Shown here piece after piece: positions 1,745 to 38,628 of a stretch of 64,000 nucleotides of DNA. The notes under the pieces were generated by a model. The model ran no database searches, was not told the DNA's origin, and saw only the letters and a program-made list of their open reading frames with translations. The stretch is from NCBI GenBank assembly GCA_037576195.1, contig CM075102.1, positions 6,262,001-6,326,000 on the forward strand. The letters are read 5' to 3'. The position numbers and the translations under genes are program-made. This DNA is from Phytoseiulus persimilis (taxonomy: Eukaryota > Arthropoda > Arachnida > Mesostigmata > Phytoseiidae). The stretch's first letter is position 1, and each line of letters starts with the position of its first letter.

Positions 1745-1747
1745 AAG

Positions 1748-1762: not shown

Positions 1763-1780
1763 TTCGATCCGCCGGACAGA

Positions 1781-8926: not shown

Positions 8927-9007
8927 CAAGAAATCGATGGTCGGTGATCGACCCCTTGGGGCACGGCAATCCATATACTTCAACGAAGTCGCTCAGGGGG
9001 TCCACGT

Positions 9008-9445: not shown

Positions 9446-9689
9446 AGATAAGACCGTCGAAAACAAATTGAGGGGGGCTCTGGGCGGAAGCACTCGAGAA
9501 ATTTTGGACACATGCCACCGCCATTGATGAGAAATCTCAATACTGCTGAAGCATTTTCCCCTCTCGAGGGGTTGGGACATCCCCCCCCCCCTCTCGTTCT
9601 CTTGTAGGTGTTTCAAAACCAATCCACCATGCTTTCCGATTCATTTATCGACGAATTTTGTCTGTATCCCGGCTTGACGCTAGGTTGTT
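9446..9689. other. 3' region of the Helentron-like element, no gene
   Basis: Contains a C-rich run at about 9581-9592 and no convincing frame. Confidence 0.5.
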
Positions 9690-9727
9690 CGCATTTCTGC
9701 GCCCCGGTTCAACCCGTGGATGAACCG
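9690..9727 (+). repeat. right subterminal inverted repeat and 3' hairpin
   Basis: CGCATTTCTGCGC (9690-9702) is the exact inverse of 921-933. CGGTTCA (9705-9711) pairs perfectly with TGAACCG (9721-9727) around a 9-nt loop. Eight bases later the T-tract target resumes. Confidence 0.65.
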
Positions 9728-9737
9728 TTCCTGTTTT

Positions 9738-9778
9738 TTTTCCTTGCGTTGGCTTCTATCGTCACGATTCACGATCCT
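9738..9778 (-). mobile_element. 41-bp fragment of FADD retroelement, continuation of 1-917
   Basis: Reverse complement of 39601-39645 in the FADD copy. It begins at the same A/T-tract where the fragment at 1-917 ends. It joins the minisatellite at a shared CCTCCAGA, a microhomology junction. Confidence 0.75.
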
Positions 9779-10894
9779 CCAGACTTCGGAAGTAAGTGTC
9801 AGATTGGTCTCGGAATCACCCCTCCAGTCTTGTAAAAGTATGGTCAGATTGATCCCGGAATCCCCCTCCAGACTTTGACAGTTATGGGCAGATTGGTCTC
9901 GGAATCACCCCTCCAGACTTGAAAAAGTATGGTCAGATTGGTCCTGGAATCATTCCTCCAGACTTCGGAAGTAAGTGTCAGACTGGTCCCGGAATCACCC
10001 CTCCCGACTTGGACAGTGATGGGCAGATTGGTCTCGGAATCACCCCTCCAGACTTGAAAAAGTATGGTCAGATTGGTCCTGGAATCACCCCTCCAGACTT
10101 CGGAAGTAAGTGTCAGATTGGTCCCGGAATCACCCCTCCAGACTTGAAAAAGTTCCCGCCAGAGAAAAAAAAAATACTTGAAAAAGTATGGTCAGATTGG
10201 CCCTGGAATCATTCCACCAGACTTCGGAAGTAAGTGTCAGATTGGTCCCGGAATCACCCCTCCAGACTTGGAAAATGATGGTCAGATTGGTCTCGGAATC
10301 ACCCCTCCAGACTTTGACAGTGATGGGCAGATTGGTCTCGGAATCACCCCTCCAGACTTGAAAAAGTATGGTCAGATTGGTCCTGGAATCACCCTCCAGA
10401 CTCCGGAAGGAAGTGTCAGATTGGTCCCGGAATCACCCCTCCAGACTTGGAAAATGATGGTCAGATTTGTCTCGGAATCACCCCTCCAGACTTGAAAAAG
10501 TACGGTCAGATTGGTCCTGGAATCAACCCTCCAGATTCGGAGGAGTATGGCCCGATTGGTCCCGGAATCACCCCTCCAGTCTTGTAAAAGTATGGTCAGA
10601 TTGGTCCCGGAATCACCCCTCCAGACTTTGACAGTGATGGGCAGATTGGTCTCGGAATCACCCCTCCAGACTTGAAGAAGTATGGTCAGATTGGTCCTGG
10701 AATCACCCTTCAGACTCCGGAAGTAAGTGTCAGATTGGTCCCGGAATCACCCCTCCAGACTTGGAAAATGATGGTCAGATTGGTCCTGGAATCACCCTTC
10801 AGACTCCGGAAGTAAGTGTCAGATTGGTCCCGGAATCACCCCTCCAGACTTGGAAAATGATGGTCAGATTTGTCTCGGAATCACCCCTACAGAC
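9779..10894 (+). repeat. 45-bp minisatellite, main array part 1 (about 25 units)
   Basis: Head-to-tail 45-bp units with several subtypes (ends CTTGAAAAAGTATGG, CTTTGACAGTGATGGG, CTTCGGAAGTAAGTG). Some units lack one base, which breaks the open frames. Part 1 ends at the R1-clade insertion at 10895. Confidence 0.97.
10154..10175 (+). mobile_element. 22-bp poly(A)-ended micro-insertion with 12-bp target duplication
   Basis: TCCCGCCAGAG followed by an A-run interrupts a satellite unit. It is flanked by direct copies of ACTTGAAAAAGT (10142-10153, 10176-10187). It looks like an extremely 5'-truncated retrotransposition event; GTTCCC ahead of the A-run resembles the 3' end of the R1-clade element at 10895. 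Confidence 0.65.
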
Positions 10895-10983
10895 TTTTTT
10901 TTTCCATGTGGGAACTTTCCCTCATGTTAATTCATTGTCTGGCACCTTAACGATTACATCAGACCGCTCGTATATATGCATCT

Positions 10984-12904
10984 TCACAATTCTCGTCTCT
11001 CCTTCTCCAGACGTTCTTTCTCGTGGAATATTGCTCCCACCCTTCGAGTTATGTCGTCCCAGTCGTCCCTCGTTTCCTGCATTTTTGAAACCAGCGCGGG
11101 GATGTCCCTCACCGGCAGCGTCCCACGCTGCGGCGCGTAGGCAGGGCACACAAGAATTGTGTGTTCGACATCGTCTTTAGCTCCCATATCACAGTATATG
11201 CATCTGTCGTTTTCTTTTAGTCCGAATCTTTCTAGGTACTCCCCGAAAGCACCATGCCCCGTAAGAAGTTGCGTGGTGTGGTAGGTGAGTTCTCCAAACT
11301 CCCTTGTGAGCCACTTCCTCACGTCGGGAATGCATTTCCTCGTCCACTCGCCTTTTGGGGACGCTTGCCAGCGGGCCTGCCACTTACTCAGGGTCTCCTC
11401 CCTAAGATCCTCCTCCGTTTGGCTGCTCGGCTCTTCGATTTCTACGGGTGCAAGTGGGCCTCTTCTGTAAAAGGAGGCCCAGGTACTTAACCGTCTTTTT
11501 GATCTGAATCTGATGCCCTTCAAGGAGCAGGTGTGGTGGACCGGTCCTCCTTTCGCGTAGCATGACCGCCTCTGACTTCGTCGGCTCAAGCGCGAGCTCG
11601 TTCTCCCTCATCCATTTAGAGATGATCTCCAGCGATTGGTTTGCTACCTCTTCAAGCTTTTCAGTCGTTCGCGCCTTCACCCAGAGCGCGAGATCGTCTG
11701 CGTACGCGATCGTTTTCGCTCCATCGGGCAGTTCCAATCGAAGCACATCGTCGTATGCTATGTTCCATAGTGAGGGGCCCAGGACGGATCCTTGTGGCAC
11801 TCCGGCGCTCATTTGATACCTCTCACCATCCCATGTTACCCAGCGGTCTGAGAGATAAGAGTTTATGACTCTCCTCAAGTAAGGGGAAATCCTTCTTCGC
11901 TCTAGACTTCTCAGGATCACCTTCCAGCTCATCGAGTTAAAGGCGTTTCTGACGTCAAGGAGCACGAGCAAGCAGGTGTTCTCGTACCCCTTCGCGTACT
12001 CGGCCGCAGCCTCCTTCATAAGCCACTCCATGGCCATGTCCAAGGTCGACTTCCCGGAGCGGAAACCGAATTGCCTTTCGGAGAGACCCTCATTTTCTTA
12101 GAGTTCCTCTTGGAGTCGTTTGTTCACTACCGATTCCATGCCCTTCGCGATCGTGTTGAGGAGGCAAATTGGTCGGTAGGAGTCCTTCTTTCCTTTTTGG
12201 ATTAGCACAAGTTTCGCTGTCTTCCATGACTGGGGAAGGTACCGGCGGTTAGCATGCTAACGGCCATTTTGGCAACTTGTATAGGCCATATTTTCATGAG
12301 GAGCTTCGTTGCCTCTGGTGGGATGCCATCCGGCCCAGGGGCTTTTCCGGCTTTCATTTTCTCCGCGACTGCTACTATTTCGCAGGCTCTTATCCTCGGT
12401 ATTCTCTCAGGGTACACCTGTGGCGCCGGTCTTTCGAAGTCTTCCCTGTTTGGGAAAAGCTCTCGGATAGCCTTTTCTGCTGACTGCGCGCTGGTGGTGC
12501 TGAAGCCTCGCATGCTCGGGTGAGCAAGTCATGCAGGATGTGTTCGTCCAGTTCAAGGTTTTCGTCTTTCATTTTCCGGCAGCTTCCGTCTATGCTTTCG
12601 ATGAGGTATTCTCTTCTGAGTTTCTCCCCTCGCCATATTCTCTCAGTCGGTCTTTCTACCTTCGTCTGTCCCGTCACTACAAAGAATTCGATATAAAGAT
12701 GATCGCTAGCGGATTCATATGCCTCGTTTACGAGCCATTTCGTTATCCGGTCCGGTCGGTTTGACACTGTCAGGTCGATGAACGACTCGGCAGTAACAGC
12801 GTAAGATCTTTGTGGGCCCGGGAGCATGGCCTTCCTGTAGGTCGGCGTCCTCCCGTCGTTCAGTACGATGAGGTCGAGTTCCGCGATCCACTCCTCCATA
12901 TCTG
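10984..12904 (-). pseudogene. R1-clade ORF2: endonuclease (C-terminal half), reverse transcriptase, C-terminal zinc motif
   Basis: Read from 12904 downward. The endonuclease keeps ESFIDLTVSN and ASDHLYIEF, but its N-terminal half is deleted. RT blocks follow: KAPGPDGIPPEA (about 12330), LLDVRNAFNSMSW (about 11950), AGVPQGSVLGP (about 11800), and AYADDLALWV (about 11710), the catalytic box. An in-frame TAA at 12098-12100 and frame changes near 12500, 12200 and 11500 break it. The C-terminal part has WTRKCIPDVRKWL and CIYCDMGAKDDVEHTILVC, the zinc motif usual at R1-clade C-termini. Not functional as it stands. Confidence 0.85.
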
Positions 12905-15310
12905 TGCCTCTCCTGTTTGAACTTTGATCATCATTGTTTTCTGTGGTTTGTGTTTCTCCCGTTCGTGTCCGATTTCCCCTCTGTCCGACTACCTGCCATC
13001 CTTCGCCGTCCTTCTTTGTGGCGCAGGTGGCTGGCTCGGATTCTGCTCGCTGTACGTTGGTCGTCGCGGGGTTCGTTTGGCTTATCTTGCCAGGCGTGCC
13101 CCTGTTTGTTCTCTGCTGTCTCGCGAGCGCTGTTTTGGCTTTGAGAGCCTCGAGTAGATCCCTGTATTTCGGGCAGTCTCTCGAGTAGCCCGAAAGGCCC
13201 TCCTCTTGACAGTTCACACAGTGATAGTCCTCCCGGTTTGTTTCGCAGTTCCTGCTCGCATGGCCAACAAGACCGCATTCGTAGCATTTCTTCTCCTTTT
13301 CTTCTTCGAGTTCACATGTCGTCGAGCGGTGACCGGCTCTCTGGCACTTGAAGCACCTCGGGACTTCGAGCCACTCCTTGACGTGGCAGAGTCTCCACCC
13401 GATCTGGACGTTCCGCATATTCAGCAGTCGGTCCGCGTCCTCGTGATTCATTTTAACCACCGCGATGCGAGTTCCTCTACCGTTCCTCCCGATCTTCTCT
13501 GACTTAAGTTGCCCTGGCTCTTTGCGTCTTAGGGCTTTATGGAGATCCTTCTCGAGCTCCTTTTCGTCGAGGCCTGGCTCCAGGCCTGTGACGAGCACTG
13601 CGGCTGGCAGTCGTCGGCTCTTGATCGCTGTCTCGTATCTCAGCTCTTCGGTGATGAACGCCTGGAGTCGATGCTGCCCTCCGGAGCTTCTCTCCGCTAT
13701 CTGTAGTTGGACTTCCTAACCTGCTTGGCGGCAGCCTCGAATCTCGACATCCAGTGCTTTAGGGTCCACTTTTTCTTTGAGGTTCTTCAGCACCTCGGCG
13801 AAAGTTTGACCCTCTGCGCTGATGCTCATAGTTGTCTGGTTTGCCTTCTGTAATCGTTTATTCTTGGGTCGTTCTTCTCCGTTTCTCGCCGTCTTCGTCG
13901 AGATCTCCGCCACGCCTCTTGCTTTCAGCCACGTACAGCAAGCTTCAGTGATTTTGCGGACTTTCATAACGTCAGCCTTTGCCGGTATCCTTATAAGAGT
14001 TTTGTCACCATCGTTGATCTGCGTTTTGTTTACTTCTCCTATGGCTTTTTGAAGTACCTCCGCGTAGTCCTCTGCTGTTGCTTCCTTCTTCAAACGACCT
14101 ATTATGTGGATTCCGGTGGTTGTGTGCCCCCCGCTCACAGTAGAACGGGAGATACCACCATGGAGGTGGTGGCGACCTCTCCATCCTCCAGTGTGTCGAT
14201 TCCCCTTACCGCCGGGAAGAATTGGGCTAGCTGGGTTATCACGTTGTCGTCTTTTGGATCCTTGTCCTCCGGACAGTGCAGCAGGATGCGGCACTTCCTG
14301 TTACCGACGATTCCAGTTTTTGTAAGCGAGGTCTTGTTGTAGACGCGTTTCGGCCAGTGTTTCCCCGCTAATACGGAGATGTCTTCCGCGGTTTGAAGTA
14401 GCTCGATAGCCTCCAGGATCTCGTTGGCCGCCTTCAGTTCTTCTCCTTCCTTACGAGCTGCCTGTGTGTTGCTGTCTCCGCCTGTTGCGCTCTCTAGTTT
14501 GGCGATCGTGGCCTCTAGTTCGGCGATCCTTGCATGGGCGTCGTTCAGCTGCTCGGCGGTCCGCGTCAGCAGGTCCGTTTTCTGTTCCAGTTGCTCGTTC
14601 AGGAACTCCAGCTCTTCTAGATATTCGTGCGGCCTTTCGTCACTGCTGATGATTTCCTCTATGATGCACTTGGCGGCGGAAGGAATGTCGGTCTCCAGTC
14701 GGGTGACTCCTCCCTGCAGTTGCTGGGTGAGCTGTTTCATCTCCTTTGCCGTAGTCTTGGTCTCGATTGCTTTCATACGGTCAACCTTGTCCTTGATCTC
14801 AGTCTTGATCTTCTGCCTGATGACGATTGCGAGGTTCTGGAGGAGCTTACCCCTGCTTGCGATTTTGGCTTGCTTCTCCTCTTCGAGTTCCGGCGTATTC
14901 TCTCGATGTCTTTTGAGCGGTCTTGGGGTGCTCGGTTGGGCTCTTTTTCCTGCAGGGACTTGCTCTTCCGCTCCCCTCTTGTTCTCCGCCTCGCGGGGTT
15001 GGTCGGGTCTCGCTGGCTGGAGCTTCGTTACGGAGGTCGCTGCTGTCACTCCCTCCTTCAGAGTGTCGCTGGTCGAGCCCTCAGTGTCATCCATGCACTC
15101 CTGATCGGGGTCCTGGATTACGGTGCTGGTGGCATCCTCCATCGTCGTTCCCTTCTTCTCCGGCGATCTTCCTACTCGCCCTCCCTTCGCGAAGGGGTTG
15201 TCGCCAGGGGTTACCTGGGGTTGGCCGGGACGGCCTGTCGCTGTGGGCAATTCAGCGGTTTGTTCATTCTTGTGACTGTCCATTATAATCTTCTTGTTCT
15301 GTGCCTTCAA
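12905..15310 (-). pseudogene. R1-clade ORF1: Gag-like RNA-binding protein, frameshifted
   Basis: The first frame (15310 to about 14135) is polar, with a long coiled-coil region (EQLEQKTDLLTRTAEQLNDA, then ARIAELEATIAKLES). A shifted frame (about 14290-13716) carries the central domain (GGHTTTGIHIIGRLKKEATA). A third (13598 downward) has three zinc knuckles starting CFKCQRAGH, CYECGLVGH and CVNCQEEG (about 13340-13160). Frame changes lie near 14140 and 13710. Downstream the knuckle frame runs without a stop straight into the endonuclease of ORF2: a deletion removed the ORF1 stop and the first half of the endonuclease. Confidence 0.82.
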
Positions 15311-15839
15311 TCTCCCCTATTGTGACGCGGTCCGGTGTCGCTCCCACCTCCTCTCCGCGTTATGATATTGTGGTCTCAGCAGGTCCCCGTGGGCAGACGG
15401 CTAGGGCAACGCACAGCACGCGTATCGATGATTCCTGCATCTCGCGCCTCAGGGTCCCTCCCGGCCACCAACTGGCACTAAGTTGCTGTTTGCTTTTTTC
15501 AGCGCATGCGGGGCAGCCAGGTTGGATTGGTTGGATCCACCCGGGCCCGTGTACTATACGCCGGCGCCACCTCGCCCAAGTGGTTTCCCAAGCTGTACCC
15601 TCCGTATCGCTGTGAGCCACACATAACGCTTTGGTTTGGAGTTTGCTCCACCTTCCCGTTCCACGGTTCGCTCTCGGGCACGTTTGCCATCGCCGCCCCC
15701 AAGGAGTCAGACGCGATGACGTCCTGGTTTTGGTCCGCGCCGGCTATTTTATTTCACCGGTACCCGCCATATCTGGCGGGCCCTCCCCTATCCGCAACCC
15801 GGGGACGCGCTCAGTTGGGGATCCAGAAACCCCGCTGAG
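15311..15839 (-). other. 5' leader of the R1-clade element
   Basis: About 530 bp upstream of ORF1, GC-rich, without a supported gene. Plus-strand frames of 200-230 aa seen across 14424-15325 are mirror images of ORF1 and are not genes. Confidence 0.6.
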
Positions 15840-18800
15840 ACCCCTCCAGACTTGAAAAAGTATGGTCAGATTGGTCCTGGAATCACCCCTCCAGACTTCG
15901 GAAGTAAGTGTCAGATTGGTCTCGGAATCACCCCTCCAGACTTGAAAAAGTACGGTCAGATTGGTCCCGGAATCACCCCTCTAGACTTCGACAGTGATGG
16001 GCAGATTTGTCTCGGAATAACCCCTCCAGACTTGGAAAAGTATGGTCAGATTGGTCCTGGAATCACCCCTCCAGACTTCGGAAGTAAGTGTCAGATTGGT
16101 CTCGGAATCACCCCTCCAGACTTGAAAAAGTACTTTCAGATTGGTCCTGCAATCAACCCTCCAGACTTGGAAAAGTATGGTCAGATTGGTCCCGGAATCA
16201 CCCCTCTAGACTTGGAAAGTAATGGGCAGATTGGTCCCGGAATCACCCCTCCAATCTTGTAAAAGTATGGTCAGATTGGTCCCGGAATCACCCCTCCAAT
16301 CTTGTAAAAGTATGGTCAGATTGGTCCCGGAATCACCCCTCCAGATTTGAAAAAGTATGGTCAGATTGGTCCTGGAATCACCCTTCAGACTCCGGAAGTG
16401 AGTGTCAGATTGGTCTCGGACTCACCCCTCCAGACTTGAAAAAGTACGGTCAGATTGGTCCCGGAATCACCCCTCCAGTCTTGTAAAAGTATGGTCAGTT
16501 TGGTCCCGGAATCACCCCTCTAGACTCCGACAGTGATGGGCAGATTGGTCTCGGAATCACCCCTCCAGACTTGAAAAAGTATGGTCAGATTGGTCCTGGA
16601 ATCACCCCTCCAGACTTGTAAAAGTATGGTCAGTTTGGTCCCGGAATCACCCCTCTAGACTTCGACAGTGATGGGCAGATTGGTCTCGGAATAACCCCTC
16701 CAGACTTGAAAAAGTAAGGTCAGATTGGTCCTGGAATCACCCTCCAGACTTCGGAAGTAAGTGTCAGATTGGTCTCGGAATCACCCCTCCAGTCTTGTAA
16801 AAGTATGGTCAGATTGGTCCCGGAATCACCCCTCCAGACTTTGACAGTTATGGGCAGATTGGTCCCGGAATCACCCCTCCAGTCTTCGGAAGTGAGTGTC
16901 AGATTGGTCTCGGAATCAGCCCTCCAGACTTCGGAAGTAAGTGTCAGATTGGTCTCGGAATCAGCCCTCCAGACTTGAAAAAGTAAGGTCAGATTGGTCC
17001 TGGAATCACCCTCCAGACTTCGGAAGTAAGTGTCAGATTGGTCTCGGAATCACCCCTCCAGTCTTGTAAAAGTATGGTCAGATTGGTCCCGGAATCACCC
17101 CTCCAATCTTGTAAAAGTATGGTCAGATTGGTCCCGGAATCACCCCTCCAGATTGAAAAAGTATGGTCAGATTGGTCCTGGAATCACCCTTCAGACTCCG
17201 GAAGTGAGTGTCAGATTGGTCTCGGACTCACCCCTCCAGACTTGAAAAAGTACGGTCAGATTGGTCCCGGAATCACCCCTCCACTCTTGTAAAAGTATGG
17301 TCAGTTTGGTCCCGGAATCACCCCTCTAGACTTTGACAGTTATGGGCAGATTGGTTCCGGAATCACCCCTCCAGTCTTGTAAAAGTATGGTCAGATTGGT
17401 CCCGGAATCACCCCTCCAGTCTTGTAAAAGTATGGTCAGATTGGCCCCGGAATCACCCCTCCAGACTTCGACAGTTATGGGCAGATTGGTCTCGGAATCA
17501 CCCCTCCAGTCTTGTAAAAGTATGGTCAGATTGGTCCCGGAATCACCCCTCCAGACTTTGACAGTTATGGGCAGATTGGTCTCGGAATCACCCCTCCAGA
17601 CTTGATGAAGTATGGTCAGATTGGTCCTGGAATCACCCTCCAGACTCCGGAAGTAAGTGTCAGATTGGTCTCGGAATCACCCCTCCAGACTTGAAAAAGT
17701 ATGGTCAGATTGGTCCTGGAATCACCCCTCCAGACTTCGACAGTTATGGGCAGATTGGTCTCGGAATCACCCCTCCAGTCTTGTAAAAGTATGGTCAGAT
17801 TGGTCCCGGAATCACCCCTCCAGACTTTGACAGTTATGGGCAGATTGGTCTCGGAATCACCCCTCCAGACTTGAAAAAGTATGGTCAGATTGGTCCTGGA
17901 ATCATTCCTCCAGACTTGGAAAAGTATGGTCCGATTGGTCCCGGAATCACCCCTCCAGACTTCGACAGTTATGGGCAGATTGGTCTCGGAATCACCCCTC
18001 CAGACTTGAAAAAGTATGGTCAGATTGGTCCTGGAATCACCCCTCCAGACTTGTAAAAGTATGGTCAGTTTGGTCCCGGAATCACCCCTCTAGACTTCGA
18101 CAGTGATGGGCAGATTGGTCTCGGAATAACCCCTCCAGACTTGAAAAAGTAAGGTCAGATTGGTCCTGGAATCACCCTCCAGACTTCGGAAGTAAGTGTC
18201 AGATTGGTCTCGGAATCACCCCTCCAGTCTTGTAAAAGTATGGTCAGATTGGTCCCGGAATCACCCCTCCAGACTTTGACAGTTATGGGCAGATTGGTCC
18301 CGGAATCACCCCTCCAGTCTTCGGAAGTGAGTGTCAGATTGGTCTCGGAATCAGCCCTCCAGACTTCGGAAGTAAGTGTCAGATTGGTCTCGGAATCAGC
18401 CCTCCAGACTTGAAAAAGTAAGGTCAGATTGGTCCTGGAATCACCCTCCAGACTTCGGAAGTAAGTGTCAGATTGGTCTCGGAATCACCCCTCCAGTCTT
18501 GTAAAAGTATGGTCAGATTGGTCCCGGAATCACCCTTCAGACTCCGGAAGTGAGTGTCAGATTGGTCTCGGACTCACCCCTCCAGACTTGAAAAAGTACG
18601 GTCAGATTGGTCCCGGAATCACCCCTCCACTCTTGTAAAAGTATGGTCAGTTTGGTCCCGGAATCACCCCTCTAGACTCCGACAGTGATGGGCAGATTGG
18701 TCTCGGAATCACCCCTCCAGACTTGAAAAAGTATGGTCAGATTGGTCCTGGAATCACCCCTCCAGACTTGTAAAAGTATGGTCAGTTTGGTCCCGGAATC

Positions 18801-21377
18801 ACCCCTCTAGACTTCGACAGTGATGGGCAGATTGGTCTCGGAATAACCCCTCCAGACTTGAAAAAGTAAGGTCAGATTGGTCCTGGAATCACCCTCCAGA
18901 CTTCGGAAGTAAGTGTCAGATTGGTCTCGGAATCACCCCTCCAGTCTTGTAAAAGTATGGTCAGATTGGTCCCGGAATCACCCCTCCAGACTTTGACAGT
19001 TATGGGCAGATTGGTCCCGGAATCACCCCTCCAGTCTTCGGAAGTGAGTGTCAGATTGGTCTCGGAATCAGCCCTCCAGACTTCGGAAGTAAGTGTCAGA
19101 TTGGTCTCGGAATCAGCCCTCCAGACTTGAAAAAGTAAGGTCAGATTGGTCCTGGAATCACCCTCCAGACTTCGGAAGTAAGTGTCAGATTGGTCTCGGA
19201 ATCACCCCTCCAGTCTTGTAAAAGTATGGTCAGATTGGTCCCGGAATCACCCCTCCAGACTTTGACAGTTATGGGCCGATTGGTCCCGGAATCACCCCTC
19301 CAGTCTTGTAAAAGTATGGTCAGATTGGTCCCGGAATCACCCCTCCAGTCTTGTAAAAGTATGGTCAGATTGGTCCCGGAATCACCCCTCCAGACTTCGA
19401 CAGTTATGGGCAGATTGGTCTCGGAATCACCCCTCCAGTCTTGTAAAAGTATGGTCAGATTGGTCCCGGAATCACCCCTCCAGACTTTGACAGTTATGGG
19501 CAGATTGGTCTCGGAATCATCCCTCCAGACTTGAAGAAGTATGGTCAGATTGGTCCTGGAATCACCCTCCAGACTCCGGAAGTAAGTGTCAGATTGGTCT
19601 CGGAATCACCCCTCCAGACTTGAAAAAGTATGGTCAGATTGGTCCTGGAATCACCCCTCCAGACTTGTAAAAGTATGGTCAGTTTGGTCCCGGAATCACC
19701 CCTCTAGACTTCGACAGTAATGGGCAGATTGGTCTCGGAATAACCCCTCCAGACTTGAAAAAGTAAGGTCAGATTGGTCCTGGAATCACCCTCCAGACTT
19801 CGGAAGTAAGTGTCAGATTGGTCTCGGGAATCACCCCTCCAGTCTTGTAAAAGTATGGTCAGATTGGTCCCGGAATCACCCCTCCAGACTTTGACAGTTA
19901 TGGGCAGATTGGTCCCGAATCACCCCTCCAGTCTTGTAAAGTATGGTCAGATTGGTCCTGGAATCACCCCTCCAGACTTCGGAAGTAAGTGTCAGATTGG
20001 TCTCGGAATCAGCCCCTCCAGACTTGAAAAAGTAAGGTCAGATTGGTCCTGGAATCACCCTCCAGACTTCGGAAGTAAGTGTCAGATTGGTCTCGGAATC
20101 ACCCTCCAGTCTTGTGAAAGTATGGTCAGATTGGTCCCGGAATCACCCCTCCAGACTTTGACAGTTATGGGCAGATTGGTTCCGGAATCACCCCTCCAGT
20201 CTTGTAAAAGTATGGTCAGATTGGTCCCGGAATCACCCCTCCAGTCTTGTAAAAGTATGGTCAGATTGGCCCCGGAATCACCCCTCCAGACTTCGACAGT
20301 TATGGGCAGATTGGTCTCGGAATCACCCCTCCAGTCTTGTAAAAGTATGGTCAGATTGGTCCCGGAATCACCCCTCCAGACTTTGACAGTTATGGGCAGA
20401 TTGGTCTCGGAATCACCCCTCCAGACTTGATGAAGTATGGTCAGATTGGTCCTGGAATCACCCTCCAGACTCCGGAAGTAAGTGTCAGATTGGTCTCGGA
20501 ATCACCCCTCCAGACTTGAAAAAGTAAGGTCAGATTGGTCCTGGAATCACCCCTCCAGACTTCGACAGTTATGGGCAGATTGGTCTCGGAATCACCCCTC
20601 CAGTCTTGTAAAAGTATGGTCAGATTGGTCCCGGAATCACCCCTCCAGACTTTGACAGTTATGGGCAGATTGGTCTCGGAATCACCCCTCCAGACTTGAA
20701 AAAGTATGGTCAGATTGGTCCTGGAATCATTCCTCCAGACTTGGAAAAGTATGGTCCGATTGGTCCCGGAATCACCCCTCCAGACTTCGACAGTTATGGG
20801 CAGATTGGTCTCGGAATCACCCCTCCAGACTTGATGAAGTATGGTCAGATTGGTCCTGGAATCACCCTCCAGACTCCGGAAGTAAGTGTCAGATTGGTCT
20901 CGGAATTACCCCTCCAGACTTGAAAAAGTAAGGTCAGATTGGTCCTGGAATCACCCTCCAGACTTCGACAGTTATGGGCAGATTGGTCTCGGAATCACCC
21001 CTCCAGTCTTGTAAAAGTATGGTCAGATTGGTCCCGGAATCACCCCTCCAGACTTTGACAGTTATGGGCAGATTGGTCTCGGAATCACCCCTCCAGACTT
21101 GAAAAAGTATGGTCAGATTGGTCCTGGAATCATTCCTCCAGACTTGGAAAAGTATGGTCAGATTGGTCCTGGAATCATTCCTCCAGACTTGGAAAAGTAT
21201 GGTCAGATTGGTCCCGGAATCACCCCTCCAGACTTTGACAGTTATGGGCAGATTGGTCTCGGAATCACCCCTCCAGACTTGAAAAGTATGGTCAGATTGG
21301 TCCTGGAATCATTCCTCCAGACTTGGAAAAGTATGGTCAGATTGGTCCCGGAATCACCCCTCTAGACTTGGAAAGTA
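15840..21377 (+). repeat. 45-bp minisatellite, main array part 2 (about 123 units) with higher-order repeats
   Basis: Four or more unit subtypes alternate. Higher-order copies are visible: an identical block starts at 16769, 18204 and 18921 (offsets 1,435 and 717 bp). A private variant, TTGGCCCC, recurs at 17441 and 20266 (offset 2,825), the same offset as the blocks starting at 17871 and 20696. This points to repeated unequal exchange of multi-unit blocks. Subtypes with GTCTTGTAAAAG carry an in-frame TAA, so no long translated frame is maintained. Confidence 0.97.
21367..21377 (+). repeat. target-site duplication CTTGGAAAGTA, left copy
   Basis: Exact match to 27227-27237, flanking the plus-strand R1-clade element. 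Confidence 0.9.
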
Positions 21378-21668
21378 GTCAGCGTCGAACCACGGAGGAG
21401 TACGGTCGCTTTCCGCGAGCTCCTGTTTCTGTGCTTTTGCCAGTGATTTGTGGTGTGCCAGGTGATAGGCCTTCTTTCGAGAACGATTTTGGTGCGCTGA
21501 CGACCAAGATCGGGCCATCAGTCTGGGAGACACCGAATTAAAGGTATATTTTGAAGTTTTGAGGCGGACTTCAATCCGGAGACTTCGTCGAGTTAGCCTG
21601 GAAATTGTGCCGATCAAATCGGCTCAATCCGGTTAGATTCAGAAAAGCGTCGCTAGGGAGAAGAATTT

Positions 21669-23735
21669 GTGACCCCTCTGGTCACGTATTTCACGTTAGG
21701 TGCGAGGGAATCAGAAAGCTTGCCTTCCCGCCCAGCCGGAAGCAGGTTACAGGGACCCGTCATCCTGGAGCGGCGCAGGGCTTCCACGCCCGAGCTGTCA
21801 ACGATCCGACTGCGGGAATCGGTTTTCGACGAGAGTCGGCGCCAGATGGAGCAAGAGAGGGATCGCCGGAGGGCGGCAGGAGGCCTGGACGTGCCCAGGG
21901 GGTTCGCCAGGGGGGGGAAGGTGGCACACTCGCCTACTGGGGGGGATAGGTCAGAGGATGTGACGGCGATGGATGTGGGGAGCCGGGGACTCGTTCCGAA
22001 GACGAGGAAGAGGGGCGCCGAGGGCAATTTGAGTCTGGATGAGTCAGATGGACAAAGCAAGAGGGTCGCAGGAGAATCGCAGGGGGATGGTCCGAAGGAG
22101 ACCGAGCAGCTGGAGCATAAGATAGCTCAGATGGGTAAATACATGGAGAAGCTGACCAGGCTGTGTTCGGCCCAGAACACCAAGAAAGAACTCAAGGATC
22201 TCGGGAGGGTAGTGCCGGGTCTCTACCGGAGTCTGGTAACTAGCTTTCACGAAGAGATCTCCAGAATCAGGGGGGAAAGGCTGGTCGTCGAAGATGCTGT
22301 TTGCAGTAGGTGTGGGAGGAGAGAGGCGGGATGCCGGGCAAGAGAGGGGCGGAGTTGACGAAGGAGCTGGAGGACAGGTTCGCAGGTGCTGAGGGCGTTG
22401 AGGATCGACTCGCGCTCCTCGATCTCGAATGGCCTGAGGAAGGCTTCAGATGCGTCAAACTCACGCGGGACGACTCCTGGAGTCAAAGGAGGTTGAAGCT
22501 TATCATTGTCGAAGAGGGTAGGAAGTTCGAGGGTGGAGGCTTGGGCGACCTATTGCAGCAGTTCCTGAGGGTTGGGCAGGTCAGCAGCCTGAAGGCTGGT
22601 AGCGTTGCGGTCCTCAGAAGCTACGAAGCGCTCGAGGTGGTCGGCGAGCAAAGAAATCGGGAGAACAACGGGGCAACTAGGGCGCTCGTTATCGGAATCA
22701 TGGGGAAGGGGGAAACGGTGGGGGTCACGACCTTGAGGATGCTCGAGGGGGCTTTGGAGAAACTCGCGGGGCTGCCGGGCTTCGACGAAGAGCGGGCTGT
22801 GGCATACGTGGACCCGGCGTGTCGAAACCAGAGACTCCGCAGGGCACTGGAAGTAGCATGCTGGGCCACGGGAGCGGCTCTCGGGGAGGACTTCGGGGTC
22901 CTGGAGGTCTGCTCAAAGGGGGCTGTGACTCTGCCCACGGAGGGCGGTATAACAACCACGATCAAGGTCAAGTCAGCGGAAGGAAAAACCTTCGAGGACA
23001 CTCTGCGGGGAGTGAGAGGGCTGTGGAATTCAGGCAGGCTCGGCGTCAAAGTCCGAGGGGTCCCGATGAAGGATGGGGCCGGGAATCTTATTATTAGGCT
23101 CGAAGAGCAGCGGCGGGGAGCGGGGAGAGATTTCGCGAGAGTGCTGAAGGAGAACGCCAACTTGGAGGCTGAAGTAAGGGAGGGAACGGGACTGAGACCG
23201 GTGGCTCTCTGGGGGTACGACCCGCTGGTCTCACCGGAGGAAGCGGAAAAAAACTCTTCGGAGTCTACTGCGGATCCCGGAGAGTGCCAAGGTCACGGTG
23301 GATGAGCCCCGTCTGGTGAGGGCTGAGGTATGGAGGGCCCTGGTTACCTTACCTGCGGACGCTGCGGAAGCCCTTCTGCAACATAGGACGCTGCGGCTTG
23401 GAAGCCGGTGGTGTCGAACCGAGCGGTGGGTCGAGGTCCAGACGTGCTTCAGGTGTCACGTCCCGGGGCATATGGCGAGAGAATGCACGTTGAAGGGAGG
23501 GGACGGGAAAGTATGCTACAGATGTGGTGCAGCTGATCACTTGGCAAAGGACTGCACCGCAGCCCAACCCAGATGTTACGTCTGTAATGCTGAGGGACAC
23601 CGAGCGGACAGCAACTCCTGCCCGGAAAGGGGAACGAAAATGAAGGAGATCATCGGGGCGATGAAACGCGGCAGAAGGAAGAATGTGCCGGCGGCGGACG
23701 GGTGGACCACTGTAGGTCATAGGGAACAAAACTAA
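21669..23735 (+). pseudogene. R1-clade ORF1: Gag-like protein with three zinc knuckles, two frameshifts
   Basis: Three overlapping frames: 21669-22358, 22310-23305, 23298-23735; the overlaps mark two small indels. The first part is Arg/Gly-rich with a short helical segment (EQLEHKIAQMGKYMEKLTRL). The middle part holds the domain with GGITTTIKVKSAEGKTFEDT. The last has three zinc knuckles: CFRCHVPGHMAREC, CYRCGAADHLAKDC and CYVCNAEGHRADSNSC. The product should package the element RNA. An ATG at 21846 is the first clear start; the frame is open further upstream. It ends in TAA at 23733-23735, with the ORF2 ATG directly after. Confidence 0.85.
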
Positions 23736-26700
23736 ATGGGCGGGATAACCATAATCCAAGTTAATCTGAACAGGAGTAGGGACGCCCACAGCATGCTCGA
23801 AAAAGTGGTCCAGGAGATGCGAGTGGATTTGGCGTTGCTCTCGGAAACCAACGAGGCGATTGCCAAGAGCCACGGAGACTGGATCTGTGACGAAGCATGG
23901 GGCACAGCAGGTTGGATGACGGATAATAATGGGTCACTGAAACTGAGGGGGACGGGCGGGGGCAGTGGCTTCATCTGGATGGAGATCGATGGCATCGGGG
24001 TCTTCTACTCATGCTATATATCGCCAAACAGGCCCCTAGATGACTTCAAGAACTTTCTTGGAGAGCTTGGGGAGTGTGTCGCTGGCCATAGAGGAAAGAA
24101 GATTTTCATTACGGGGGACTTCAACGCAAAGGGGGCCGACTGGGGCAACCGTCACACAGATGTGAGAGGGAGGTACTTGGAGGACTGGGTGGCTGGGAAC
24201 GACCTTGTCATAATCAACGACGGGGGAGTTCCGACTTTCTCGGCAGTGAGGGGTGAGTCTTTCATAGATTTAACGATGGCAAACGGGAGGGCTTTGAATG
24301 ACGTAGAGGGATGGAGAGTCCTGGAGTACCAACAGTCGCTTAGCGACCACCGGTATATAATTTTCACGGTGCGGGAGAGAGAACACTCACGGCAGTCGGG
24401 GCCGGAAGGGAGCTGGCAGTTCAGGAAGCTAGATCTTGCCAGGGTGAAGGACTACATCGATAGGCGCTGCAGGAACCTAATCGGGGTCAACTTGAGCGCC
24501 GAGATGCTGGAAAGTATTCTCACCAGAGCATGTAGCAGGGGGGGGCCAAAGCGGAACTACACGGGGATGAATCGACCGATTTACTGGTGGAACGAAGAAG
24601 TGGCCGCTCTGCGCCAACGGTGCATCCGCCTACAGAGGACCGCCAGTAGAACGGCGAGCTGGCTGGGACGTCGGGACCGGGGAGCTGAGGGGAGGGCTAC
24701 ATATTCCAAACAAATGGCCCTGTATAGGAGGGCACGGGGGGAGCTGAGGGCTGGATAAGAAGGAGCAAGGCGAGGGCATGGAGGGAGCTAATCGAGGAGG
24801 TTGGAAAAGACGTATGGGGGAAGCCGTATCGAATAGTCATGGGAAAGTTCGCGAGGAAGGGACCGAAGCTGGCCAGTGAAAAACTGCAGGAAACAATTCG
24901 GGGGCTTTTCCCGGAGCGCCCTGAGCGGGAGGGCGGTATCGACGAGACCGGGAGAATGGGTATGGGAAATCGGGGACGGACTATTCCAGAGGTAACTTCG
25001 GAGGAGATAATTCGGGCAGCTGACGGACTGGCGACGCGTAAAGCGCCGGGGCCGGACGGAGTTCCCGCCGAGGTGGTGAAACTCTTGGCCAGTAGATGGC
25101 CCAAATTGGTCAGGGATTTTTTCAATCAGCTGGTGAGGGAGGGAAGGTTCCCGCTGCCTTGGAAGAGGGCAGGGCTGGTGCTCATACCAAAGGGAGGGGG
25201 AGGAGGGCAGAGGCCGATTTGCCTCCTGAATAGCATGGGGAAATTGTTTGAGAAGGTCATCGTCGGAAGGCTGCAAGTGGAGATCGAGGATCTGGGGGCG
25301 CTATCGGGAAACCAATATGGTTTTAGGAGGGGTCTTTCGACGGTCGAGGCAGTCAGATGGGTTATCAGCCGGGCGATGGAGGAGAGGGTGAAGTGCACAA
25401 AGACTAGGAGCTTCGTCTTGTTGGTGTTGCTCGATGTCAAGAACGCCTTCAACTCGCTGGAGTGGGGAAAATATTGCGGGCCATGAGGGACAGGGGCTTC
25501 TCGGAGTACTTAATCCAGATCGTTTCGTCGTATCTTAGCGAAAGGGGAATCGTATTGGAAGGGGGAGTTTTCAAAATCACGGCGGGGGTTCCACAGGGTT
25601 CAATCTTGGGCCCAACACTGTGGAACCTTGCGTATGACGGGGTTCTGAGGGTTGGCATGCCGAGGGGGGCCGAGTTGTTAGCTTACGCTGACGATCTCGC
25701 ACTCCTTGTCAGGGCCAAGACTGAGGGCGAGGTGGAGAATATTGGGAACCGGGCACTGGGAATAATCCATGAGTGGATGAGGAGCATCAATCTGGAGCTG
25801 GCACCGCACAAAACGGAAGCTCTCTACCTCATAGGGAGGAAGAGGGCGAAGGGGATAAAGCTAAATTTGGGAGGGGTTGCGATCAAGCTCGCTGATAAGG
25901 TGAAATACCTTGGGGTGATGTTGGACAAAGGGCTCACTGGGAGGGAGCACATTGGGTATGTGGCGAAGAGGGCGAGGGAAACATCGAGGAAGCTTGGTAG
26001 GTTGATGCCGAGGATTGGGGGAATAGAGGGAGGGGACAGACGTCTGCTGGCTTCAGTGGCGGAGTCGGCGGCCATGTATGCGGCCCCTGCGTGGGCGCAT
26101 ATGGCATTCGCGTCAAAGGGTAGGCGGCAAGCCATCCGAGCGGCACAGAGGACGCTTGCGATCAGGGTGAGCCGAGCTTACAGAACGGTCTCCACCGATG
26201 CAGCCCTCGTGCTCGCGAGGATGGTCCCATGGGATTTACTGGCGCAAGAAAGGGCGGCGTGTTGGGGGGAGCAGGGACTCGGGAGGGAGGAAGGGAGGGA
26301 GAAGACCATGGAGGCATGGCAGCGTGAATGGGAGGCGGGTCTAATCGGGGAGTCGAAGGGGAAATGGACGAGGCATCTCATAAGGAACTTGAAAAAGTGG
26401 GTGGACTGCGAGCACGGGGAGCTCAACTACGGGACAACCCAGATTCTCACGGGGCATGGTCAGTTTCAGACCTTCATGGTCAAAATAGGGAAGTCAGACT
26501 CTGATGTGTGCACCCTGTGCGCGTCGGGTGAAACCGACGATGTGGAACACACCGTGCTTCACTGCGAGGCCCTGCGCGACATCAGAGGGGACTGGGCTTT
26601 AGGTTTCAGTGGAGGGGGGTTGAGAGAGGTGGTGGAGTACGGGCTCAGGGGGAGGGAAGAATGGGATTATGTTTCGGGGCATTTCGAGAGGATCATGTTG

Positions 26701-26856
26701 GGCAAAACAGCGAGGGAGGAAGGTCGGAGGGCGCGGCTCGTCGCAAATTCCGAAACACGTCGGATGGCTGAAGCGGGAGGAGGGGCCCGCCAGCGGGCTC
26801 TGGACACTGCGAGAGGATCGACGGACTCTCATGGACTGGATGCGGGGGGTATTTAG
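23736..26856 (+). pseudogene. R1-clade ORF2: EEP endonuclease, reverse transcriptase, C-terminal zinc motif; two frameshifts
   Basis: Starts with ATG immediately after the ORF1 TAA and in the same frame. The endonuclease (23736 to about 24370) keeps IIQVNLNRSRDAH, LLSETNEA (catalytic Glu), ITGDFNAKGADWG and SLSDHRYIIF. A one-base shift near 24755 and another near 25465 interrupt it. RT blocks: KAPGPDGVPAEVVKLL (about 25040), VLLDVKNAFNSLEWG (about 25425-25470), AGVPQGSILGPTLWN and YADD (25684-25695). The C-terminus has WTRHLIRNLKKWV and CTLCASGETDDVEHTVLHC (26509-26565). All catalytic blocks survive, so the source element may be active elsewhere. Confidence 0.88.
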
Positions 26857-27189
26857 GTCCGAGCAGCGAAAACTCAGCGCAACACATACAACGATACACG
26901 TTCACCACTGACCACGGCACACACATCGGCACACTTCTCATCATACACAACAGAACACCACCAAGCAAATGGCTCGCGAGGATACGATGTAGGACACGGA
27001 GACAAGAATGTTGACTCCCGTTCCCATTGGTTCGAAGTAATGCTAAACCAATTCCGTCCATGGGAGCGGCCCCCCGTCCGAAAGCGGGGGTTGGGGAGAC
27101 TCCAGGTTTTTAGTGGGTTTGCGACTCCCACAGTACTGTGCTGGGGCTGTGGCACAGTCTGCATCACGCATTTTTCTTCCTGGACCCCA

Positions 27190-27226
<37 letters not shown>

Positions 27227-27228
<2 letters not shown>

Positions 27229-30000
27229 TGGAAAGTAATGGGCAGATTGGTGCCGGAATCACCCCTCCAATCTTGTAAAAGTATGGTCAGATTGGTCCCG
27301 GAACCACCCCTCCAATCTTGTAAAAGTATGGTCAGATTGGTCCCGGAATCACCCCTCCAGATTTGAAAAAGTATGGTCAGATTGGTCCTGGAATCACCCT
27401 TCAGACTCCGGAAGTGAGTGTCAGATTGGTCTCGGACTCACCCCTCCAGACTTGAAAAAGTACGGTCAGATTGGTCCCGGAATCACCCCTCCAGTCTTGT
27501 AAAAGTATGGTCAGTTTGGTCCCGGAATCACCCCTCTAGACTTCGACAGTGATGGGCAGATTGGTCTCGGAATCACCCCTCCAGACTTGAAAAAGTACGG
27601 TCAGATTGGTCCCGGAATCACCCCTCCAGACTTGTAAAAGTATGGTCAGTTTGGTCCCGGAATCACCCCTCTAGACTTCGACAGTGATGGGCAGATTGGT
27701 CTCGGAATAACCCCTCCAGACTTGAAAAAGTAAGGTCAGATTGGTCCTGGAATCACCCTCCAGACTTCGGAAGTAAGTGTCAGATTGGTCTCGGAATCAC
27801 CCCTCCAGTCTTGTAAAAGTATGGTCAGATTGGTCCCGGAATCACCCCTCCAGACTTTGACAGTTATGGGCAGATTGGTCCCGGAATCACCCCTCCAGTC
27901 CTGTAAAAGTATGGTCAGATTGGTCCTGGAATCACCCCTCCAGACTTCGGAAGTAAGTGTCAGATTGGTCTCGGAATCAGCCCTCCAGACTCGAAAAAGT
28001 AAGGTCAGATTGGTCCTGGAATCACCCTCCAGACTTCGGAAGTAAGTGTCAGATTGGTCTCGGAATCACCCCTCCAGTCTTGTAAAAGTATGGTCAGATT
28101 GGTCCCGGAATCACCCCTCCAGACTTTGACAGTTATGGGCAGATTGGTCTCGGAATCACCCCTCCAGTCTTGTAAAAGTATGGTCAGATTGGTCCCGGAA
28201 TCACCCCTCCAGACTTTGACAGTTATGGGCAGATTGGTCTCGGAATCACCCCTCCAGACTTGAAGAAGTATGGTCAGATTGGTCCCGGAATCACCCCTCC
28301 AGTCTTGTAAAAGTATGGTCAGATTGGTCCCGGAATCACCCCTCCAGACTTCGACAGTTATGGGCAGATTGGTCTCGGAATCACCCCTCCAGTCTTGTAA
28401 AAGTATGGTCAGATTGGTCCCGGAATCACCCCTCCAGACTTTGACAGTTATGGGCAGATTGGTCTCGGAATCACCCCTCCAGACTTGAAGAAGTATGGTC
28501 AGATTGGTCCTGGAATCACCCTCCAGACTCCGGAAGTAAGTGTCAGATTGGTCTCGGAATCACCCCTCCAGACTTGAAAAAGTATGGTCAGATTGGTCCT
28601 GGAATCACCCCTCCAGACTTGTAAAAGTATGGTCAGTTTGGTCCCGGAATCACCCCTCTAGACTTCGACAGTGATGGGCAGATTGGTCTCGGAATAACCC
28701 CTCCAGACTTGAAAAAGTAAGGTCAGATTGGTCCTGGAATCACCCTCCAGACTTCGGAAGTAAGTGTCAGATTGGTCTCGGAATCACCCCTCCAGTCTTG
28801 TAAAAGTATGGTCAGATTGGTCCCGGAATCACCCCTCCAGACTTTGACAGTTATGGGCAGATTGGTCCCGGAATCACCCCTCCAGTCTTGTAAAAGTATG
28901 GTCAGATTGGTCCTGGAATCACCCCTCCAGACTTCGGAAGTAAGTGTCAGATTGGTCTCGGAATCAGCCCTACAGACTTGAAAAAGTGAGGTCAGATTGG
29001 TCCTGGAATCACCCTCCAGACTTCGGAAGTAAGTGTCAGATTGGTCTCGGAATCACCCCTCCAGTCTTGTAAAAGTATGGTCAGATTGGTCCCGGAATCA
29101 CCCCTCCAGACTTTGACAGTTATGGGCAGATTGGTCCCGGAATCACCCCTCCAGTCTTGTAAAAGTATGGTCAGATTGGTCCCGGAATCACCCCTCCAGT
29201 CTTGTAAAAGTATGGTCAGATTGGTCCCGGAATCACCCCTCCAGTCTTGTAAAAGTATGGTCAGATTGGTCCCGGAATCACCCCTCCAGACTTCGACAGT
29301 TATGGGCAGATTGGTCTCGGAATCACCCCTCCAGTCTTGTAAAAGTATGGTCAGATTGGTCCCGGAATCACCCCTCCAGACTTTGACAGTTATGGGCAGA
29401 TTGGTCTCGGAATCACCCCTCCAGACTTGAAGAAGTATGGTCAGATTGGTCCTGGAATCACCCTCCAGACTCCGGAAGTAAGTGTCAGATTGGTCTCGGA
29501 ATCACCCCTCCAGACTTGAAAAAGTAAGGTCAGATTGGTCCTGGAATCACCCCTCCAGACTTCGACAGTTATGGGCAGATTGGTCTCGGAATCACCCCTC
29601 CAGTCTTGTAAAAGTATGGTCAGATTGGTCCCGGAATCACCCCTCCAGACTTTGACAGTTATGGGCAGATTGGTCCCGGAATCACCCCTCCAGTCTTGTA
29701 AAAGTATGCTCAGATTGGTCCCGGAATCACCCCTCCGGTCTTGTGAAAGTATGGTCAGATTGGTCCCGGAATCACCCCTCCAGACTTTGACAGTTATGGG
29801 CAGATTGGTCTCGGAATCACCCCTCCAGACTTGAAGAAGTATGGTCAGATTGGTCCTGGAATCATTCCTCCAGACTTCGGAAGTAAGTGTCAGACTGGTC
29901 CCGGAATCACCCCTCCCGACTTGGACAGTGATGGGCAGATTGGTCTCGGAATCACCCCTCCAGACTTGAAAAAGTATGGTCAGATTGGTCCTGGAATCAC
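27227..30000 (+). repeat. 45-bp minisatellite, main array part 3 (about 62 units)
   Basis: Continuation of the array after the R1-clade insertion, with the same subtypes and the same multi-unit blocks (for example starts at 27785 and 28054, and 28772 and 29041, both 269 bp apart, as also seen at 16769/17038 and 18921/19190 in part 2). Confidence 0.97.
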
Positions 30001-30163
30001 TGGGGTCCTGGGGAAAGAAAAGCGTTTTTTCCCGCGAAACTAGTGCGGTTTTCGGTGAAAATCACCAGTGGGAGAGGTGAAGGAGTAGGTGAAGTGCCTC
30101 AGGAAGTGACAACCCAGTGTGTGTTGTGTTTCTTGTTTTTTTTTTACAGTTTCCACATAGCAC

Positions 30164-31582
30164 ATGGCGGGATCAGCCGAGACCGTCGCGACACCACCAG
30201 CCGGTGGCCGCGCGCTATGCATGAAGTGCGTTGCGGAAGCAAACAGAACCTTCATTGTAGGAGACTGCTGCGCCTACGGATCGGTCCACAAGTATGTCAG
30301 CGGACTACGGGACAGGGTCAACGAATTGGAACTGGAATCGACGAGCCACAGCTTAGCAGCACGTGCTCTCGAAACCGCCAAGGAGGTAGGCCAGAAGAAG
30401 GCAGATCAGCTAGAAGAGAAACTCAAGAAGGCAAATGAGCTCAGAAGCCAACTTGAAAAAGATCTCAAAGATGCTAGAGCCACAATAAAGAGGATGGAAG
30501 AAGACGTCGTCATACTGCGCCAGCAGGAGCAGCCTATGATGACGGAACCACCTCCCATGGTGAAAGCAAAACCCTTCCAAAAGTCGATAATCGCCGTTGG
30601 CGATAAGACCCTAGCCCCACTAAGGGACGGCATCCACATGTGGGAAGAGCTAGGGGGGATCGGTGCCTTTGGAATGTGGTCGTCATGCCAAGAAACCATC
30701 ACCGATTGCTGTGACAGTGTAAGGCGATACCTCAACGAGGAAAAGACCGGGCAGGTCCATATCCTCGTCATGTCCGGAGCGACAGACGTCCGAGAAGGCG
30801 TCCCACGAGGACTGAATGGGGAAAATATCGCAAAGGCGATGGCGACAGCACTCGTGATGCTGAAAAGGTCCTCCGACAGAGTCCTTAGTATAGCACTGTG
30901 CTCAATGGTCGAGCACTCCGATTGCCAGAACATCGCGGAAGTGAATAATCTCCTTAAACTCAGCGTCGAGGCGATGAGGGGGGAGTTCAACTTCATAGAT
31001 CTCCGCAACATCTCCAGAGATCGCAGATTCCTTGACGTCGACAGCGGCAAGGATGATCCATACAAAGCGACCTACTCCCAAGCGGGCTACGAGGTCATTA
31101 AAAAGATCCTCCTTGAATGCTCCCTGGCCAAGCTAGACTCAGACGAGGTCACGCGGGCAAAGATCACGGAGAACAAGGAGAGAATGATGGAGATGTTGGC
31201 ACAGAGAGAGAAAGCCAGACAAGACAGAGAAAATCTGCGGAAGGAGAGGGAGAAAGAAAAGCTCCAACAAATCCGAAATGCAGCTGTCAGAGAGGCAGAA
31301 GGAAACAGATCGAGGGATGCTTCCAGAGGCCGACAGCCAGACAAACGCAAATTCGATCATTCCAGGGACGACAAACAGAGACACGTGGAAGAGAGACCGG
31401 GGACGAAAACCCCAAAATCTCGACCAGGTGAAGCAGGTGGAAGCGGCCGACAACCGCCGAAACCCCAGCCGAAAGGAGACGGAGCAGGCAGAGGCGGCAG
31501 ACAACCGCACAGGCCAAATCCGAAAAGAGGAGGACCGAGTGGAAGCTCGGCGTCTCACCCCAAAAACAGGAATCGTCCCTAG
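30164..31582 (+). CDS. FADD-family ORF1: coiled coil plus SGNH-hydrolase-like domain
   Basis: Intact 472-aa frame from ATG 30164. The N-terminus has a Cys-rich patch (CMKCVAEA, GDCCAYGSVH). Residues about 45-120 are strongly helical and charged, a likely coiled coil. Residues about 140-325 resemble the SGNH/esterase-like domain known in ORF1 of CR1-type elements: GDKTLAPL at the position of the GDS block and VMSGATDVREG at the GxND-like position; the catalytic Ser is not evident. The remainder is a basic Lys/Arg/Glu- and Gly/Pro-rich tail, probably RNA-binding. A pyrimidine tract ending in ACAG (about 30137-30149) just upstream looks like a splice acceptor. The esterase-like assignment is an inference from spacing and motifs. 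Confidence 0.7.
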   Translation: MAGSAETVATPPAGGRALCMKCVAEANRTFIVGDCCAYGSVHKYVSGLRDRVNELELESTSHSLAARALETAKEVGQKKADQLEEKLKKANELRSQLEKDLKDARATIKRMEEDVVILRQQEQPMMTEPPPMVKAKPFQKSIIAVGDKTLAPLRDGIHMWEELGGIGAFGMWSSCQETITDCCDSVRRYLNEEKTGQVHILVMSGATDVREGVPRGLNGENIAKAMATALVMLKRSSDRVLSIALCSMVEHSDCQNIAEVNNLLKLSVEAMRGEFNFIDLRNISRDRRFLDVDSGKDDPYKATYSQAGYEVIKKILLECSLAKLDSDEVTRAKITENKERMMEMLAQREKARQDRENLRKEREKEKLQQIRNAAVREAEGNRSRDASRGRQPDKRKFDHSRDDKQRHVEERPGTKTPKSRPGEAGGSGRQPPKPQPKGDGAGRGGRQPHRPNPKRGGPSGSSASHPKNRNRP

Positions 31583-31700
31583 CAGCCCCGAACCCGCCCT
31601 CGGAGAGAAAGAGAGCCAAGAACGGCGAACCATCGAACCGAGCGGCGGGAAAACAGCGGTACATCCTCGAGCACGAACGACCACCAAAGGAAAACATCGG

Positions 31701-34947: not shown

Positions 34948-35010
34948 GTTTACTCGCCACTGAAGTGAAAGTGTCATTATATTATGAGGATAAATAAATA
35001 CCAATACCAA

Positions 35011-38600: not shown

Positions 38601-38628
38601 CAATTATTCACCACTCGTTCTGCACAGT

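Follow-up and report, generated by a model that had tools for sequence, protein, structure and literature searches.

R1-type LINEs appear to share one insertion site in a dispersed 45-bp minisatellite of Phytoseiulus persimilis

Can a dispersed minisatellite serve as the target of R1-type long interspersed nuclear elements (LINEs)? The question is raised by a stretch of 64,000 nucleotides of Phytoseiulus persimilis (GenBank assembly GCA_037576195.1, contig CM075102.1, positions 6,262,001 to 6,326,000; hereafter the window), in which a 45-bp minisatellite with the unit GACTTGGAAAGTAATGGTCAGATTGGTCCCGGAATCACCCCTCCA forms several arrays, as identified with Tandem Repeats Finder (TRF). The arrays hold element A in minus orientation, element B in plus orientation and a 22-bp poly(A)-ended stub, also in plus orientation (Table 1). 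The original prediction, made from the sequence of the window alone, had placed these insertions at one shared site and assigned them to two R1 families. Its coordinates and orientations agree with our reading of the junctions, each of which shows 12-bp target duplications (with one mismatch for A), and the shared site stands; the three events, however, seem to represent three families (S, A, and B) rather than two. The single-site insertion pattern is confirmed in the satellite genome-wide, beyond the window. We consider it very probable (approximately 0.88) that the endonucleases of these R1-type LINEs nick the minisatellite at one position per unit.

Insertions in the 45-bp unit across the genome

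The genome comprises 181 Mb in 127 contigs, four large contigs making up most of the assembly, and has a GC content near 50%. A 22-mer of the satellite, allowing up to three mismatches, has 55,343 matches genome-wide. These are divided near-equally between the strands (28,039 vs. 27,304), which makes the orientation of insertions informative. When calibrated on the arrays of the window (one 22-mer match per 57 bp), the unit counts correspond to approximately 3.1 Mb of satellite, or approximately 1.7% of the genome; as degenerate units score less, this figure is on the low side. No satellite was found in 608 tiles from 19 random 1.5-kb genome samples (40 places drawn, 19 obtained).

The strongest and least expected support comes from the family of the stub. 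The 3' tip of the stub, TCCCGCCAGAG, followed by A's, occurs at 48 places within one mismatch, against one for a control. We retrieved the flanks of the other 47 places and dropped L136, whose upstream sequence is unrelated to the family. Beyond the tip, 44 of the remaining 46 have the 3' untranslated end in common; the other two (L114 and L115) carry the tip only, like the window stub, and look like duplicates of it (L115 with an exact 13-bp duplication, GACTTGAAAAAGT). The stub thus seems to represent a third R1-like family, here called S, with 47 members including the window, of which 41 lie in satellite by flank score. Merging of near-identical flanks gave 40 loci by script and 39 after the window stub had been joined by eye to L114/L115. 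Thirty-three of the 39 distinct loci are in satellite; they occur on all four large contigs and differ in tail length and unit variant. All 33 are in plus orientation, and 32 fall within 2 nt of register 0 (A-tail^GACTTGG), 24 of them exactly (P ~9e-30 against chance). The enrichment in satellite has P ~8e-22 even if the satellite is assumed to be 15% of the genome (1.4e-22 for 34/40). Family S is a near-strict minisatellite specialist.

For one S copy, 4.5 kb of upstream sequence was read as two overlapping pieces. It contains part of an open reading frame 1 (ORF1) with CCHC zinc knuckles (L165:1-1362) and an ORF2 that is open through the endonuclease, the reverse transcriptase (RT) and a CCHC-like end, approximately 1,026 codons by coordinates. 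The two open frames overlap by 55 bp when measured from stop to stop (L165 1308-1362). As both are open as far as read, S is probably autonomous. Among the best 120 of 2295 listed relatives of the S ORF2, the first with an organism name is from Galendromus occidentalis (44%). The sequence TCCGAAGGGATT near the 3' end is common to S, L107, and L110.

Genome searches with element A returned 15 matches, and 11 with its tip, few of them independent. Counting only loci with more than 230 bp of match, four of five distinct loci are in satellite (the window with L031, a cluster on contig C1, L040 with L042, and L041; L039 lies outside). All four are in minus orientation with the junction A-tail^GTCTG, and the duplication is 12 bp and exact in the C1 cluster and 11 bp at L041. 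The window copy and L031 carry an identical 80-bp 5' flank. In the cluster, six copies with satellite (L033-L038) lie at C1:54.10-54.135 Mb with spacings of 7.25, 4.15, 7.25, 4.16, and 8.42 kb; here the element and the satellite appear to have been amplified together as a higher-order unit. Matches that were not counted are L043 and L044 (60-67 bp, non-satellite), L045 (degenerate satellite, off register) and L164 (a tip with two mismatches, non-satellite). Element A is probably a minisatellite specialist as well, in this small sample.

For element B, a search with the last 291 bp gave 178 candidates, of which 40 were scored, and a separate 3' tip pattern gave 32 places. The set used here consists of 27 rows at ≥85% plus L061, L065, and L066, less L013 and L023 (3' end lost) and with L016/L017 merged, leaving 27 usable copies with a readable 3' end; L073 (85% over 74 bp, non-satellite), L024, L026, L030, L064, L068, L069, L070, L071, and ten rows without a locus were not counted. 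Thirteen of the 27 are in satellite, as are seven of the ten copies at ≥98% (L001-L009 and L025). All 13 are in plus orientation, and 11 fall within 2 nt of the junction found for S. Of the expected 5' ends of seven copies that were retrieved, six begin at one common base, and the seventh (L082) has no B sequence. Four other full-length copies have exact duplications of 13-14 bp, two in satellite (L077/L004, GACCCGGGAGAGTA; L078/L005, GGTTTCGAAAGGTA) and two outside it (L079/L006 and L081/L008); the duplication of L076/L001 has a mismatch and that of L080/L007 is unreadable. Non-satellite copies with duplications are L003, L006, L008, L010, L014, and L020 (with mismatches in L010 and L020). 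In their 3' untranslated regions, B and several other families (L104-L110; window 27100-27125) have in common a motif near GGTTTTAGTGGGT.

The minus side was also surveyed without reference to any family, by scanning for A8 tails facing the minus-strand unit. Fifteen of the 20 places found are in satellite by eye, nine of them distinct, with offsets of 12 (five junctions), 11, 13, 8, and 25. Seven of the nine are thus within 1 nt of one offset, where 30 offsets are possible, and an A12 version of the scan agrees. Seven of the nine distinct junctions were read; they belong to a family D (L104, L105, and L108) and, with one copy each, to four other kinds of 3' end. Further families thus share the register of A, and L109 and L110 lie at different offsets. 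Family D was found at eight places (control: one), four of them in satellite, all in minus orientation at offset 12 or 13 and so in A's register within 1 nt. D and the other minus-side families are known from their 3' ends and junctions.

The target site and the kind of element

The readable junctions are CCA^GACTTGG on the plus side, which corresponds to CCAAGTC^TGG on the bottom strand, and CCAGAC^TTGG on the minus side. The latter is the position originally predicted from element A; the plus-side nick had been placed at the right site, at CCAAGT^CTGG, 1 nt away from the readable position. Because the A's of the tail merge with A's of the target, both positions may be shifted onward by another 1-2 nt; they would then be mirror images of each other, and the S and A duplications would be 14 bp, like that of R1.

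Insertion of S and B would begin with a nick in the bottom strand at CCAAGTC^TGG, from whose 3' end the poly(A)-tailed RNA would be reverse transcribed (target-primed reverse transcription, as in R1), and a second nick 12-14 nt downstream would give the duplication GACTTGGAAAGT(A); the nicks presumably occur in this order. For A and D, the opposite strand of the quasi-palindromic stretch would be nicked at CCAGAC^TTGG, giving the duplication GTCTGGAGGGGT and reversing the orientation of the insertion. The best reading of these sites is that apurinic/apyrimidinic endonuclease (APE)-type endonucleases have adapted to the minisatellite, and that they recognise a single quasi-palindrome with two different strand specificities. 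The target is probably chosen by the endonuclease, by analogy with a domain swap between SART1 and TRAS1 in which the endonuclease is reported to decide the target (PMC7265360). The dispersed satellite would offer such elements a harmless haven.

The classification of A, B, and S as R1-type LINEs rests on endonuclease similarity to TRAS1 and R1Bm, on the domains and on the duplications of 12-14 bp. Among solved structures, the only matches of the B and S endonucleases with E no higher than 0.01 are TRAS1 and R1 chains (five sequences; for S, TRAS1 E=5e-13 and R1Bm E=1.5e-4). The endonuclease of A, whose N-terminal part was not recognised, matches R1Bm (2ei9) at E=0.0017, alongside nucleocapsid proteins that match its CCHC region. 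The RT domain is PF00078, neither the A and B fragments nor S gave an RNase H match after the RT, and the motif CX2CX9HX4C at the ORF2 C-terminus of A and B is also seen in the S translation. We infer that D belongs to the same clade as A, B, and S.

RT identity is 55% between S and A, 48% between A and B, and 44% between S and B. In an RT tree (approximately 160 residues, 70 sequences, relatives without clade names), S and A group together with a support of 0.90, apart from B, so that the register shared by S and B does not follow the tree. Since S groups with A but shares its site with B, one-register targeting may have been acquired or retained independently of the RT branching. The odds are about even for the wider picture to which this belongs, in which the R1-type families S, A, and B, together with further families known from their 3' ends, share the dispersed minisatellite as a niche, split by the strand of the quasi-palindrome, and in which satellite and elements can amplify together.

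Alternative explanations and comparison with known systems

Insertion might be near random, with copies in the satellite merely surviving there because it is gene-poor and tolerant. The satellite is plausible as a safe region, and half of the B and D copies lie elsewhere, but retention alone yields neither one register nor one orientation (32/33 and 33/33 for S), nor the opposite orientations of A and D vs. S and B; we regard this explanation as extremely improbable. Hardly better are the chances that a few original insertions were multiplied by amplification of the satellite. Such amplification is likely for the C1 cluster, for window A and L031, and for pairs and a triplet of S copies. As a general account it is disfavoured by distinct flanks, as after flank merging 33 S loci remain in satellite on the four large contigs, with varied tails and units. 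The single register, the single orientation and the variety of flanks lead us to reject passive retention and amplification as sole causes.

Less easily dismissed, although still unlikely, is a weak motif preference alone (approximately CA^GR plus a few bases), for which the satellite supplies tens of thousands of copies. This fits B and D: 13 of 15 non-satellite B junctions begin with G and nine with GG (a set without L021 but with L068 and L073). It also has a parallel in Drosophila, where R1 insertions outside the 28S gene are described as having 4-9 bp in common with the 28S target (PMC2718515). A short motif, however, should turn up elsewhere in the unit as well, both in other phases and on the opposite strand, and the 33/39 of S suggests that a longer sequence is recognised.

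Several observations weigh against targeting of one position per unit. Copies outside the satellite are numerous for B (14/27) and D (4/8), and the B satellite copies L007 and L027 are off register. Off-satellite B sites resemble the site only in part, their mean exceeding random (P ~0.001) through two of six sites, and 138 of the 178 B candidates were left unscored. Six of the 39 S loci also lie outside (L119, L124, L127, L131, L138, and L155); L127 has 16 bp of the satellite unit followed by other DNA, and most of the other flanks (L119, L124, L138, and L155) are unlike the site. The assignment of the stub to S depends on an 11-base tip whose final G is found in four S copies (L111-L113 and L116). 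Independent A events are few, as the six C1 copies and the window/L031 pair seem to have arisen by duplication after insertion, and the family-blind scan covers the minus side only, where L109 and L110 are at other offsets.

Targeting by the endonucleases nevertheless remains our preferred reading, with differences between the families. A "minisatellite specialist", as originally proposed, is an apt description of S and likely of A, but too strong for B and D, which show a target preference and not strict specificity; for B this may be a general site preference for which the satellite is the richest source. The expected concentration of 3' junctions in one phase, with few copies outside, is found for S and, on few events, for A, whereas B and D keep the register without being confined to the satellite. 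The proposed symmetry of the site holds between families, each family having been found in one orientation only.

A close parallel is with TRAS and SART, which share a tandem-repeat-specific APE-type endonuclease with the elements described here; TRAS1 is the best solved match of the B and S endonucleases. Their target is the telomeric TTAGG repeat, in contrast to a dispersed 45-bp minisatellite, and they too represent two element types on one repeat in opposite orientations, as A and D vs. S and B. Waldo and Mino are R1-clade elements that target microsatellites, and so resemble the present families in clade and in the use of tandem repeats; their repeats are very short, whereas here each family uses one site in a unit of 45 bp. 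With R1 itself the families have in common an R1-like endonuclease, an RT without an RNase H match and the C-terminal CCHC-like motif. The A, B, and S duplications of 12-14 bp are near the 14 bp given for R1 in PMC2718515, and R1 also inserts outside its main target, which is 28S ribosomal DNA and not a satellite. YURE elements, relatives of Utopia, are likewise LINEs that prefer a satellite, but they belong to a lineage with a restriction-like endonuclease, and their preference, for a U2-derived and hence RNA-gene-derived satellite, is weak according to PMC4640811.

For sequence-specific LINEs, the targets named in the accessible portions of PMC4640811 and PMC5035012 are ribosomal RNA, transfer RNA and small nuclear RNA genes, spliced leader exons, microsatellites, telomere repeats, and transposons; minisatellites are missing from these lists. 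In the open-licence PMC literature, as far as its text was available, no LINE family is reported as minisatellite-targeting, which is no proof of absence. The kind of element is thus known, and the minisatellite target and its sharing by several families are undescribed as far as searched. Targeting of a dispersed minisatellite that has no known function would suggest that such endonucleases can adapt to ordinary, possibly fast-changing repeats, and the near-strict (S) and loose (B and D) use of one site would lend itself to a comparison of how DNA specificity arises in APE-type endonucleases.

Features of the window and neighbouring sequences

Table 1. Satellite arrays, insertions, target duplications and coding regions in the window
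Feature	Position	Strand	Basis and remarks
45-bp array holding the stub, abutting element A	9776..10896	+	TRF
Stub left target duplication ACTTGAAAAAGT	10142..10153	+	12 bp
22-bp stub, 3' tip plus A-tail, taken as a severely 5'-truncated S insertion	10154..10175	+	11-base tip; register
Stub right target duplication ACTTGAAAAAGT	10176..10187	+	12 bp
A target duplication, element's 3' side, ACCCCTACAGAC on +	10883..10894	-	junction reading
Element A, R1-like LINE, frames broken	10895..15839	-	T-run 10895-10903; body 10904-15839
A: ORF2 C-terminus, CX2CX9HX4C motif	10984..11607	-	translation; weak zf-RVT match E=0.029, below cut-off
A: RT fragment	11402..12097	-	PF00078 E=4.6e-29
A: CCHC region; APE-type endonuclease, C-terminal half	12390..13715	-	PF14529 E=8e-7 (profile 49-116 of 117)
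A target duplication, element's 5' side, ACCCCTCCAGAC on +	15840..15851	-	junction reading
45-bp array between elements A and B, ~123 units	15840..21377	+	TRF
B left target duplication ACTTGGAAAGTA	21366..21377	+	junction reading
Element B, full-length R1-like LINE	21378..27226	+	5' end GTCAGCGTCG; body 21378-27191, then A-tail of ~35
B: ORF1 C-terminus, CCHC zinc knuckles	23196..23735	+	PF00098 E=1e-14
B: ORF2 APE-type endonuclease	23736..24758	+	PF14529 E=1.7e-22; TRAS1 1wdu E=6e-14; R1Bm 2ei9 E=2e-12
B: RT, with CX2CX9HX4C at the C-terminus; frame break near 25.4 kb	24728..26856	+	PF00078; translation
B right target duplication ACTTGGAAAGTA, first A possibly tail	27226..27237	+	12 bp
45-bp array 3' of element B	27227..30000	+	TRF

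A further LINE-like element with endonuclease and RT matches (element C, window 30000-36769) starts inside a satellite array, off the CCAGACTTGG site. It was considered as an additional event at the site and rejected, as its 5' side lies at GGAATCA, a different position. Beside the first array, the sequence at window 8930-9775 recurs at 98% at L021 (C3:15.32 Mb), joined to a B A-tail, and is possibly another mobile element that lands at A-runs. The body of a Ty3/gypsy-like long terminal repeat retrotransposon, with gag, RT, RNase H, and integrase matches, occupies window 1721-7473. Long inverted repeats with several arms at 92-98% identity pair window 35035-39247 with 50199-54244 and 63075-64000.

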